From assembly GCF_003641145.1 (NCBI RefSeq), contig NZ_CP032744.1:620001-684000 (forward strand): a DNA stretch of 64,000 bases, in the 5' to 3' direction. A program made the position numbers and the translations under genes. Within the stretch, counting starts at the first letter, position 1. Each line of letters starts with the position of its first letter. Source of the stretch: Lactiplantibacillus paraplantarum. Its GTDB lineage: Bacteria; Bacillota; Bacilli; Lactobacillales; Lactobacillaceae. Positions 21,015 to 59,079 of this stretch are shown piece after piece. The notes beneath the pieces are model-generated. The model saw nothing but the letters and a program-made list of their open reading frames with translations. It searched no databases and had not been told where the DNA came from.

Positions 21015-21947
21015 ATGTCCTACGCCAGTGACGTTAAGAAAGAATTGACTAACCTCGCTGTCCATCGCGAGAATGCTAAGGCTGAATTAATGGCTTTGAT
21101 TCGAATGAATGGGGCGATTAGCATTGCTAACCACCACTTTATTTTGAATATTCAGACGGAAAATCCGGCCATCGCGCGGCGTATTTACCGGCTACTCAAA
21201 CAATTTTACGACGTTGATAGTGAATTGATCGTTCGACGTAAAATGAAGTTAAATAAAAATAATTTGTACATTGTGCGTTTAAAGACGGGTACGGATATGG
21301 TGTTAGGCGATTTGGGGATTTTGAAGGATTATCAAATTGTCGAGGTTGCGCCAACGGAAGTGCTAACGGATGACGCGGCCGTCCGGTCCTATTTACGGGG
21401 TGCTTTTTTGGCGGGAGGCTCAGTGAATAATCCTGAAACTTCCCGGTATCATTTGGAAATTTACTCACTGTATGAGGAACACAATCATATGATTTCAGAA
21501 ATGATGAATCAGTATGGTTTGAACTCGCGAACGACTGATCGGCGTGGCGGCTTTATTACGTACATCAAGGAAGCGGAAAAAATCGCGGACTTTTTGTCAT
21601 TAGTTGGTGCTACGAATGCCATGCTTAAATTCGAGGATATTCGGATTATGCGTGATATGCGTAACTCGGTTAATCGGTTAGTCAACTGTGAAAATGCCAA
21701 TATGGATAAAGTGGCCAATGCGTCTAGCAAACAGATTGAAAATATTTTACTGATTGATGCAACGGTGGGGTTACAACAGTTACCGCCGAAATTGCAAGAA
21801 GTAGCGGTTGCTCGATTGGAACACCGTGAAGTTAGTCTTAAGGAATTGGGAACTTTAGTTCCAGGCGGGCCAATCTCTAAATCCGGTATCAATCATCGCT
21901 TACGCAAGATTAATCAATTTGCCGAACAGCTACAAAAAGATGCCTAA
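21015..21947 (+). CDS. whiA: DNA-binding protein WhiA
   Basis: 310 residues: an N-terminal part with a degenerate LAGLIDADG fold ([23 protein letters not shown] is split over two such motifs near residues 116-137), and a C-terminal helix-turn-helix ([21 protein letters not shown] near 275). WhiA regulates division and chromosome segregation in Firmicutes and sporulation in Streptomyces. GGGGGT lies before the ATG, 12 bases after the yvcK stop. Last gene of the operon. Confidence 0.96.
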
Positions 21948-21991
21948 ATACAGGCCATCCGTCTTGAGAGTTGCGCTGAATAGTTATTGAG

Positions 21992-22033
21992 AAGCTTACT
22001 GACACTCTTTTGGGAGTGTCAGTAAGCTTTTTA
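21992..22033 (+). terminator. rapZ-yvcK-whiA terminator
   Basis: AAGCTTACTGACACTC pairs perfectly with GAGTGTCAGTAAGCTT around TTTTGG, followed by TTTATTT. Confidence 0.95.
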
Positions 22034-22079: not shown

Positions 22080-22109
22080 TTGACAAAAGTAAGTGAAGCT
22101 ATTTATACT
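22080..22109 (+). promoter_or_regulatory. Promoter of the Cys-rich leader
   Basis: Perfect TTGACA (22080-22085), 18 bases, TATACT (22104-22109). The start of transcription would be near 22116, just before the leader reading frame. Confidence 0.85.
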
Positions 22110-22131
22110 GAACACATCTTATGAAATCGGA

Positions 22132-22230
22132 GAGACGTAATCATGCAAAAATTAGCGACGCAAATGATGATGTGCTGCCCATGTTGTGAATCAAACAACA
22201 TGGCTATTTGCGTTGAATTACAAGCGTCTC
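22132..22230 (+). promoter_or_regulatory. Three nested stems across the leader peptide
   Basis: GAGACG (22132-22137) can pair with CGTCTC (22225-22230), ACGCAAAT (22158-22165) with ATTTGCGT (22206-22213), and CCATGTTGT (22179-22187) with ACAACATGG (22195-22203). All three are perfect. The outer stem covers part of the leader's ribosome site; the inner stem starts within the Cys codons, so a stalled ribosome would change the fold. Confidence 0.6.
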
Positions 22231-22244
22231 TGCATCAAAAATAA
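22143..22244 (+). CDS. Cys/Met-rich leader peptide (33 aa), candidate attenuator
   Basis: A small frame too short for ordinary gene finders: ATG at 22143 with GGAGAG nine bases upstream, stop TAA at 22242. It encodes MQKLATQMMMCCPCCESNNM and 13 further residues. Five of 33 codons are Cys and five are Met; codons 8-15 read Met-Met-Met-Cys-Cys-Pro-Cys-Cys. A strong promoter lies upstream and a strong terminator follows 29 bases after the stop, before the peptide-binding lipoprotein gene, the layout of a translational attenuator. No signal peptide or membrane segment is seen. A role as a free metal-binding peptide is possible but less likely. Function is inference; the frame, promoter and terminator are seen. 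Confidence 0.65.
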   Translation: MQKLATQMMMCCPCCESNNMAICVELQASLHQK

Positions 22245-22272
22245 CGAATTTGAGTCAAATCGTTAATTTTGA

Positions 22273-22316
22273 AACGCCTGCTTGGAATCTGACGAGATTC
22301 TAAGCAGGCGTTTTTT
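22273..22316 (+). terminator. Terminator between leader peptide and lipoprotein gene
   Basis: AACGCCTGCTTGGAATCT pairs with AGATTCTAAGCAGGCGTT at 17 of 18 positions around GACG, followed by six T. A weaker hairpin (AACGAATTTGA with TCAAATCGTT, 22243-22264) precedes it. No convincing promoter lies between it and the lipoprotein gene at 22381, so read-through probably controls that gene. Confidence 0.9.
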
Positions 22317-22380
22317 GTTTAGGCCGATGGGAATAAGTAAATCAATAACAATTAAAATGGGAATGTAAGGGGCGAGAAGT

Positions 22381-24033
22381 TTGAAGAAGCGATCAGTGTT
22401 AGCGATTATGATGAGTCTAGTATTAGTGACGGTGCTGGCAGCGTGTGGGAAGCAAAGTACTCAGTCTACTGGCAGTGGCAAGTATGCAAGTAGTCAGGTT
22501 TTAAACTTGTCGTACCCTAGTTCGTTGGATTCAATTGATATTTCCAACATGTCGGGATACGGGAGCACTGGTAATATTTTTGAAAGTCTATACCGGTTAG
22601 GGAAGAATGGAAGTATTACGCCTGGATTAGCCAAATCGACTAAGGTTTCAAAGGACGGCAAGACATATACCTTTACGATTCGCAATGCGAAGTGGAGTGA
22701 CGGGGCCAAGATAACCGCACAGGATTTTGTGTATTCTTGGAAGCGCACGGTGACCCCCGCAACTAAATCACAATATGCTTATCTCTTTTCAGGGGTGAAG
22801 AATGCGGATGCGATTGTCGCTGGCAAAAAATCGCCAAGTACGTTGGGTGTCAAAGCTCAAGGTAAGCATACTTTTATCGTCACCTTGGATAAGCCAATTA
22901 CTTACTTTAAGAAGTTGATGACTTACCCGCTATTTGGACCAATCAGCGAAAAGGCGGTCAAAAAATGGGGTAGCAAGTACGCAACCAAAGCCCAATATAT
23001 GCTATACAGTGGGCCATTTAAATTAACTGGCTGGACAGGAACCAATAATAGTTGGCAATTTGTTAAGAATAATCAATATTGGGATAAAAAAGCAGTTCAT
23101 TTACAAAAAATTAACTATACAGTTAATGAAAGTACGACAACAACGCTGAACTTGTTCCAAGAAAAGAAGCTGGACTTAACGCAATTAGCAAGCGAGCAAG
23201 TGAAGAATATGAAGACTAGTGCTGATTATACGACTTATCCATATTCGATCACGGCGTTCCTAGTCTATAATTTCCAAGACAGTAACGCGACCATCAAAAA
23301 AGCGCTCAATAACGCTAAGATTCGCCAAGCCATTTCTCTTTCTATTAATCGGAAAACGTTAGTCAAGAATGTGATTGGCGATGCGTCAACGGTCTCGAAG
23401 ACGTTTGTTCCACAAGATTTAGCCAAAAATCCCAAAAATGGTAAGGATTTTGCGGATGAATCAACGGTTAAAAATTCAACGTCATATAACAAAGCCCTTG
23501 CCAAAAAGCTATGGCAACAAGGACTTAAGGAAACCGGTATCAAGAAACTATCTATTAAATTATTAACTTCTAATGATGAACCGAATAAGCCAATTTCACA
23601 GTATTTGAAATCAGCACTAGAAAAGAATCTCGATGGGTTAACGGTTAATTTATCCAATATTCCATCAAAAGTTGCTTCAAGCCGTGCTCAAAGTGGTGAT
23701 TTTGATATTTACCTCAGTGGTTGGGGAGCTGATTTCAATGATCCAATCTCACACTTGCAAATTATGACTAGCAATAGCGGTTATAACTACGGTAAGTACA
23801 ATAGTAGTACGTATAATGCGCTAGTTAATAAAGCCCAAAATCAAGATGCTAACAACGCTAATGCGCGTTGGCAAGATATGATTAGTGCTGAGAAGACGAT
23901 CATGCAAGACCAAGGAATTACGCCATTGTATCAAACGGTATACTCATATTTGCAAAATCCAAAGGCCAAGGGCATTATTCATAATACTGCTGGTACGCAG
24001 TGGAATTATAAGTATGCTTATATTGCAAAATAA
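22381..24033 (+). CDS. Peptide ABC transporter substrate-binding lipoprotein (OppA family)
   Basis: 550-residue extracellular lipoprotein: signal peptide with lipobox LAAC (Cys 22) and a family-5 solute-binding domain across the rest (YSWKRTVTP, AKWSDGAKITAQDFVYSW near residues 100-120, and GWGADFNDPISHLQIMTS near 447). Such proteins capture oligopeptides for an Opp permease. No permease or ATPase gene is next to it, so it must share one encoded elsewhere. Start is TTG 22381 after AAGGGGCG. It lies downstream of the Cys-rich leader and its terminator, so its supply of peptides may be tied to cysteine or methionine status (inference). A strong terminator follows. Confidence 0.92.
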   Translation: MKKRSVLAIMMSLVLVTVLAACGKQSTQSTGSGKYASSQVLNLSYPSSLDSIDISNMSGYGSTGNIFESLYRLGKNGSITPGLAKSTKVSKDGKTYTFTIRNAKWSDGAKITAQDFVYSWKRTVTPATKSQYAYLFSGVKNADAIVAGKKSPSTLGVKAQGKHTFIVTLDKPITYFKKLMTYPLFGPISEKAVKKWGSKYATKAQYMLYSGPFKLTGWTGTNNSWQFVKNNQYWDKKAVHLQKINYTVNESTTTTLNLFQEKKLDLTQLASEQVKNMKTSADYTTYPYSITAFLVYNFQDSNATIKKALNNAKIRQAISLSINRKTLVKNVIGDASTVSKTFVPQDLAKNPKNGKDFADESTVKNSTSYNKALAKKLWQQGLKETGIKKLSIKLLTSNDEPNKPISQYLKSALEKNLDGLTVNLSNIPSKVASSRAQSGDFDIYLSGWGADFNDPISHLQIMTSNSGYNYGKYNSSTYNALVNKAQNQDANNANARWQDMISAEKTIMQDQGITPLYQTVYSYLQNPKAKGIIHNTAGTQWNYKYAYIAK

Positions 24034-58863: not shown

Positions 58864-58899
58864 CGGAGGATAAACTAGACCAATTGTTAATTGGTTAAA

Positions 58900-59045
58900 G
58901 CGGAATAGCGCCAGGACTTTAGAATCTAAAGTTGACGAGGATGACGTTTATCGATAATCGACGGGTGACGTCAGGGACTGCACTCTACAGGTCAATTACA
59001 AAAACTAGTTGTGAAGCTAGTGACAGATATTTTGACCACGCAGCT
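58900..59045 (+). ncRNA. glmS ribozyme
   Basis: The conserved core of the GlcN6P-activated self-cleaving RNA is present: AGCGCCAGGACTTTAG (cut site expected between A 58907 and G 58908), CTAAAGTTGACGAGG, GTTTATCGATAATCGACGGG (core pseudoknot region), then GACTG/CAGGTC and ACTAG/CTAGT stems matching P3 and P4. It lies directly upstream of glmS. When GlcN6P is high the leader cuts itself and the glmS message is degraded. The 3' limit is approximate. Confidence 0.92.
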
Positions 59046-59079
59046 AGAAACAATTCAAACAGTAAAGGAAGATTAATTT

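Follow-up and report, generated by a model that had tools for sequence, protein, structure and literature searches.

What would a promoter, a cysteine-rich frame of 33 codons and an intrinsic terminator be doing between whiA and the gene of a peptide-binding lipoprotein? The question arises from a window of 64,000 nucleotides of Lactiplantibacillus paraplantarum (the whole stretch of DNA analysed; contig NZ_CP032744.1), in which a leader comprising these elements (22080-22322, with an 18-bp terminator) sits 5' of an OppA-type gene at 22381-24033, whiA ending at 21947 (Table 1). A preliminary description made from the letters alone had proposed a cysteine, or cysteine plus methionine, attenuator. 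From the analysis described below, we consider it highly probable that the leader is a ribosome-mediated transcription attenuator which reads the supply of cysteinyl-tRNA and turns oppA on at cysteine shortage.

Table 1. Positions of the leader elements and of the downstream gene in the window.
Feature	Position	Strand	Basis or remark
Promoter, sigma-70 type	22080..22109	+	TTGACA-18-TATACT, 11/12 consensus matches
Leader ribosome-binding site and 5' strand of outer stem P1	22129..22138	+	Fold, covariation
Leader peptide frame	22143..22244	+	33 codons plus stop TAA, 5 Cys codons
Control codons UGC UGC CCA UGU UGU (Cys Cys Pro Cys Cys)	22173..22187	+	Same amino acids in 22/22 genus leaders
Hairpin P3 (CCAUGUUGU/ACAACAUGG)	22179..22203	+	Made by the Cys codons themselves; fold
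Proposed antiterminator, 5' strand (UUUGCGUUGAAUUACAAGC)	22207..22225	+	Conservation, folding
Outer stem P1, 3' strand (GCGUCUCU)	22224..22231	+	Late in frame; fold, covariation
Hairpin P4, frame-to-terminator interval	22235..22272	+	Fold
Intrinsic terminator	22271..22314	+	5' arm and loop nearly invariant, 3' arm variable
Proposed antiterminator, 3' strand (GCUUGGAAUCUGACGAGA)	22280..22297	+	Terminator 5' arm and loop
OppA-type peptide-binding lipoprotein gene, proposed regulated gene	22381..24033	+	550 aa, TTG start

The promoter, which had been called near consensus, and the 33-codon frame with its ribosome site and MMMCCPCC run are as first described, with GGAG at 22129, ten bases 5' of the ATG. 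The codons occupy 22143-22241 and the stop 22242-22244, giving the peptide MQKLATQMMMCCPCCESNNMAICVELQASLHQK; a fifth invariant cysteine codon, at 22209, had been missed. At the cysteine frequency of the window's long open reading frames (70 in 15617 residues), the chance of finding at least four cysteines in a given run of five codons is about 2e-9. The minimum-energy fold of the leader (-76.6 kcal/mol, z = -7.8), which none of 200 shuffled sequences equalled, contains both the nested stems and the 18-bp terminator that had been drawn beforehand. A simple consensus scan after 22317 found no promoter-like site between terminator and lipoprotein gene, in agreement with the earlier view that oppA lacks a clear promoter of its own, and the whiA transcript apparently terminates at a strong hairpin and U-run near 21989-22031 (judged by eye). 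Sequence searches of NCBIfam and PDB match the lipoprotein to peptide-binding proteins, the best PDB chain being 5kzt (E 1.2e-107). Membership of a known Rfam family was rejected for the leader, as none matches: the T-box family RF00230 gave no match there at gathering score, nor at E up to 5, and the only matches at gathering score in the whole window, a glmS element and a tRNA, lie away from it. The glmS riboswitch/ribozyme is located at 58896-59047.

A DNA search of 60 relatives revealed the leader in 21/21 Lactiplantibacillus genomes, our own included. The sole match among 39 other relatives (G036) was judged by eye to be spurious, lying among ribosomal-protein genes, and no distant DNA match of the leader was found in plasmids. 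One genome of the genus, G001, carries two copies, giving 22 genus leaders. A pattern scan of named genomes returned 18 stretches, comprising 14 Lactiplantibacillus records, one Lactobacillus bin, two Liquorilactobacillus and one Pediococcus, and the genes behind all 18 start like the window's lipoprotein (N-terminus, by eye). Alignment of the 22 leaders revealed that the CCPCC amino acids are invariant, with the second cysteine codon being TGC in 11 leaders and TGT in the other 11; the conservation of the cysteine codons in relatives, on which the attenuator proposal depended, thus includes a synonymous change. The N-terminus of the peptide varies through insertions and deletions and its C-terminal half is well conserved. 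The motif TGYTGYNNNTGYTGY was rejected as a marker on its own and is by itself uninformative because it gave 36 matches in our own genome against 22 for the reversed control.

Searches across Lactobacillaceae extended the picture beyond the genus. At E <= 0.01, a profile of leader peptides picked up 28 out of 397 family genomes. Of these, 21 belong to the genus, one is G192, where the match precedes the ABC operon, four are from genera g5 and g48 and have it before oppA-type genes, and two are chance matches. The matches in G263 and G232 were rejected on account of surroundings without the arrangement of frame, terminator and oppA. The g5 and g48 peptides recur in Pediococcus damnosus, Liquorilactobacillus satsumensis and L. 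uvarum, and an order-wide HMM search with the peptide (198 genomes) found only our own leader. For the OppA protein, 201 family genomes were searched and 89 gave a match with E <= 1e-130; the best 69 of these 89 were examined and treated as orthologues. The 480 bases upstream of the best match in each of the 69 genomes, together with those of one paralogue from our own genome, made up 70 regions, in which matches starting at query residue 9-37 were scanned from the match start and cover less true upstream DNA. A cysteine-cluster frame, defined by a length of 15-50 codons, a ribosome-like site and three or more cysteines within seven codons, was present in 54/69 genomes, and the region of the own-genome paralogue had none. 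Shuffling the 70 regions gave a mean of 1.05 such frames and a maximum of 5 in 100 rounds, and the reverse strand gave 0. No such frame preceded OppA paralogues in Lactobacillaceae (0/20) or OppA genes of another family (0/20 loci; 58 genomes, 41 matches at E 1e-110), and the 36 genomes of one further family gave no OppA match as good as E 1e-120.

These frames span 12 of the 17 genera examined, or 11 if the doubtful g12, represented by L215, is set aside; the search for the cysteine run in other lactobacilli that the preliminary description had called for came out in favour of its proposal. The frames of L198, L202 and L215 may be due to chance. An automatic finder placed a terminator in 50 of 53 family leaders (all except L190, L198 and L215). 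Between genera, the peptides have little in common beyond the cysteine cluster, the spacing of which appears as CCPCC, CCC, CxCC or CCxMC, and the C-terminus differs. A hairpin like P3, which we regard as a candidate pause hairpin, is also found in Pediococcus and Liquorilactobacillus leaders. Among the 15 of 69 regions that have no cysteine frame, six hold a T-box (E <= 0.001, one above gathering score) and nine hold nothing recognised. The frame is present in L181 and absent from L172, which has a T-box instead; the contigs of both begin nearby. The Liquorilactobacillus satsumensis-type genome G227 (L132, L194) has a CCPCC leader at one oppA-type gene and a T-box at the best match to the window's gene.

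Among amino-acid clusters in the 70 regions, cysteine is the most in excess (53 vs 0.8 in shuffles), which upholds the proposed attenuator with cysteine as its common element, and methionine comes second (12 vs 0.3). The second leader copy of G001 precedes an operon encoding two permeases, an ATPase and a binding protein, whose best solved relatives, 2yjp (E 2e-77) and 1xt8 (4e-70), we take to be L-cysteine receptors; NCBIfam gave only sub-threshold matches for this protein, to several amino-acid binding proteins including those for cystine. The binding protein occurs in 35 of 201 family genomes and is absent from our own (E <= 1e-40). Scanning of 34 of these 35 operon loci (L081, with no match to the first permease, was left out) revealed cysteine-cluster frames at three, namely L071, L075 and L085, the last resembling the genus peptide. 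T-boxes read by eye at other loci comprised six with specifier UGC and bulge UGGA and seven with AUG and UGGU, which presumably fit a cysteine tRNA with U73 and a methionine tRNA with A73, respectively; only those of L086 and L087 reach the Rfam gathering score. The regulator of this operon differs by genus across L063-L097, being a UGC-type T-box, an AUG-type T-box, a cysteine-codon leader or nothing recognised. The presence of a second copy at a cysteine-type ABC operon, together with the T-box specifiers, places both genes in sulfur amino-acid supply.

A variant compatible with the cysteine attenuator is that the leader responds to methionine in addition to cysteine, or primarily to methionine. 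The MMM run that precedes CC in 18 of the 22 genus leaders speaks for this, as do the methionine clusters and the T-boxes at the OppA matches of g48 and g51, which were read by eye as AUG/A73. However, the run is broken in L011, L018, L020 and L023, and the 53 regions with cysteine clusters include many leaders without an adjoining methionine run, for which reasons we hold a role for methionine to be unlikely.

Folding and alignment both bear on the outer stem P1, in which the leader's ribosome site pairs with the late part of the frame. One of the six counted pairs occurs as AU, UA, CG, GC and UG, another as CG and UA, and the changes hit the wobble bases of a serine and an alanine codon. Both partners are changed in ten alignment cells and the stem has a covariation score of 0.255, values each equalled by 0/500 shuffles; the number of pairs with two-sided change (2) was equalled by 198/500 shuffles and the number of pair types by 74/500. 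As P1 covaries, we conclude that the hidden ribosome site is real, as the preliminary description had supposed. Its claim of three nested stems stands in part: all three are in the minimum-energy fold, the outer one covaries and relatives preserve the inner one. The middle stem has its 5' strand where the frame varies and, by eye, this strand shows little conservation.

The terminator revealed a further asymmetry. Its 5' arm and loop vary in only 1 of 22 columns against 7 of 16 for the 3' arm (Fisher p = 0.005, with columns that are not independent), and a plain terminator offers no obvious reason for such a frozen 5' arm and loop. The stretch 22207-22225, in the 3' part of the frame, is complementary to 22280-22297, a possible pairing that the preliminary description had not noted: 12 Watson-Crick pairs are constant across the 22 leaders, to which wobbles and three mismatched positions are added in our own leader. 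Changes fall only at wobbles or mismatches: G-U becomes A-U in two leaders and U-G becomes C-G in two, and in two leaders an A-C mismatch becomes G-C with loss of the neighbouring U-G. In register, 83% of the cells are paired, compared with 22-44% when the strands are slid by one to three columns, and four of the six codons in the 5' strand never vary, third position included. Two-sided covariation was absent from this helix among the 22 leaders, the 3' strand being invariant, and the shuffle control is uninformative because one strand does not vary. Identification by duplex energy alone was rejected as not significant, the energies being no better than those of shuffles (p 0.01-0.46 in 13 leaders, 0.43 in our own; the terminator position of L147 was assigned by hand). 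Conservation and modelled folding support 22207-22225 and 22280-22297 as the strands of a candidate antiterminator; raw duplex energy and the folding model that lets P1 form do not.

Comparison between genomes shows, at the level of sequence, conserved cysteine codons, a terminator, a covarying P1 and frozen antiterminator strands, and a mechanism can be proposed on this basis. Transcription would start near 22117. With ample cysteinyl-tRNA, the ribosome would pass the cysteine codons towards the stop and cover or pass the 5' antiterminator strand, allowing the terminator to form; with no ribosome loaded, P1, P2 and P3 would sequester the same strand, with the same result, and oppA expression would be low in either case. 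If cysteinyl-tRNA became scarce, we infer that the ribosome would stall on UGC UGC CCA UGU UGU and keep the inner stems open, upon which 22207-22225 would pair with 22280-22297 and block the top of the terminator, and RNA polymerase would read through into the peptide-binding gene.

This proposal was modelled by folding the leaders without a ribosome, with a stalled ribosome and only the 3' RNA free, and with the 5' RNA also free. For the 22 genus leaders, with RNA extending to about the terminator loop, the antiterminator core had a mean probability of 0.02-0.06 without a ribosome. The value was 0.90-0.98 when the ribosome stood at the first or the fourth cysteine codon and only the RNA 3' of it could pair, the lowest single leader at the first codon being L015 (0.38). 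With three more bases of RNA, enough for the terminator's top hairpin to close, the core stood at 0.65-0.70, and about 0.22 remained for the outer part of the helix. A codon scan placed the end of the effective stall window about eight codons past the last cysteine of the cluster; with the ribosome at the stop, the antiterminator helix is excluded by construction. When the RNA 5' of the stalled ribosome was free to pair, P1 won and the antiterminator fell to 0.01-0.07 at the cysteine codons; the two helices cross and overlap by about two bases, and the folding program cannot represent such a crossing. An initiating second ribosome, we infer, might also cover P1. The models thus predict an antiterminator that is absent without a ribosome and that forms on stalling only if the RNA behind the ribosome stays unpaired.

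Extension of the folding to 50 family leaders revealed that upstream pairing of the terminator 5' arm in the stalled state lies above the mean of shuffles in 46, above the value without a ribosome in 40 and above that with a ribosome at the stop in 49. Taken singly, 27 of the 50 reach p <= 0.05 (our own leader, 0.08), several lie below their shuffles, e.g. L197, L203 and L208, and in 10 the fold without a ribosome pairs the arm as much as the stalled state does. The Wilcoxon p of 5e-11 over the 50 leaders is too good, as species of one genus are related.

The conserved frame might alternatively encode a functional small cysteine-rich protein, or a nascent peptide acting as a sensor of metal or redox state, with the terminator ending its own transcript or answering the chemistry of the peptide. 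Cysteine clusters could bind metal, a metal site would likewise keep its cysteines amid drift, and within Lactiplantibacillus the peptide is well conserved over its C-terminal half. That conservation is, however, also one of nucleotides, at synonymous sites of the antiterminator strand, whereas between genera the peptide changes beyond the cysteine cluster, including cysteine spacing and C-terminus. In addition, the type of operon behind the second copy in G001 bears UGC-type T-boxes (read by eye) in other genera, which points to a tRNA as the signal, and we consider a peptide function very improbable. Least probable of all is a self-standing small or dual-function RNA with its 3' end at the terminator, oppA being served by another, unseen promoter: a strong promoter and a terminator do bound a compact structured RNA, and the invariant terminator loop could serve as a seed, but the proposed antiterminator would account for that loop, no promoter-like site precedes oppA, and an oppA-type gene lies downstream in 18/18 pattern-scan stretches and in 54/69 regions.

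The cysteine attenuator has classical counterparts in the trp, his and leu leaders of enterobacteria, where transcription attenuation is mediated by the ribosome. Like these, it combines a short frame of control codons and mutually exclusive terminator and antiterminator structures (the latter proposed here) with an amino-acid-related gene downstream; it differs in its cysteine control codons, the uptake lipoprotein gene, the Firmicute host and the outer stem over the leader's ribosome site. T-boxes likewise sense tRNA charging and control terminators. They are found at the matching gene and at the ABC operon in other genera, whereas sensing by the leader described here would go through a translating ribosome. 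In mycobacteria, upstream frames with cysteine-codon clusters lie ahead of cysteine-related genes, and cysteine-directed attenuation has been proposed for them in a paper on leaderless transcripts (Shell et al. 2015, PMC4633059). The cysteine-codon clusters and the cysteine-related genes behind them are shared features; the lactobacillar frame differs in possessing its own ribosome site, in being followed by an intrinsic terminator with a likely antiterminator, and in preceding a peptide-uptake gene. Judged by mechanism, the terminator/antiterminator form of cysteine attenuation across lactobacilli looks new. A later experimental paper reportedly followed the mycobacterial work.

The usual view is that Firmicutes sense amino-acid shortage by T-boxes; a large part of Lactobacillaceae seems to sense cysteine via translating ribosomes. 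Annotation alone would not tie this OppA gene to sulfur, and its suggested role is the uptake of cysteine-bearing peptides. The cysteine-attenuator reading accounts for a conserved short frame in lactobacilli, and the dozens of natural variants of one switch could serve studies of attenuator evolution. More tentatively, and with slightly less than even confidence, we propose a Lactobacillaceae-wide family of cysteine-codon attenuators with fast-changing sequence and fixed architecture, which would replace T-boxes in sulfur amino-acid supply and could precede other genes such as those of the cysteine-type ABC operon; a second input would come, in Lactiplantibacillus, from the covarying stem that covers the ribosome site, making the switch responsive also to the ease of leader translation.

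Two minor features accompany the leaders. A second short frame with Gly-Cys-Pro-Cys (SPGCPC) lies between terminator and oppA in the Pediococcus-type regions L163 (-103), L164 (-91) and L165 (-113), in L131 and in L146; it occurs in three of six g5 regions plus L131, and is possibly a second control. The -35 region of the promoter, TTGACAAAAGTAAG (22080-22093), is kept in all 21 Lactiplantibacillus leaders preceding oppA, with an invariance that extends well past the -35 hexamer. Our own genome holds one exact copy and four with one mismatch (reversed control, 3). A similar stretch was seen by eye ahead of the ABC operon in L080, and TTGACAAAAGTAAG may be an operator.
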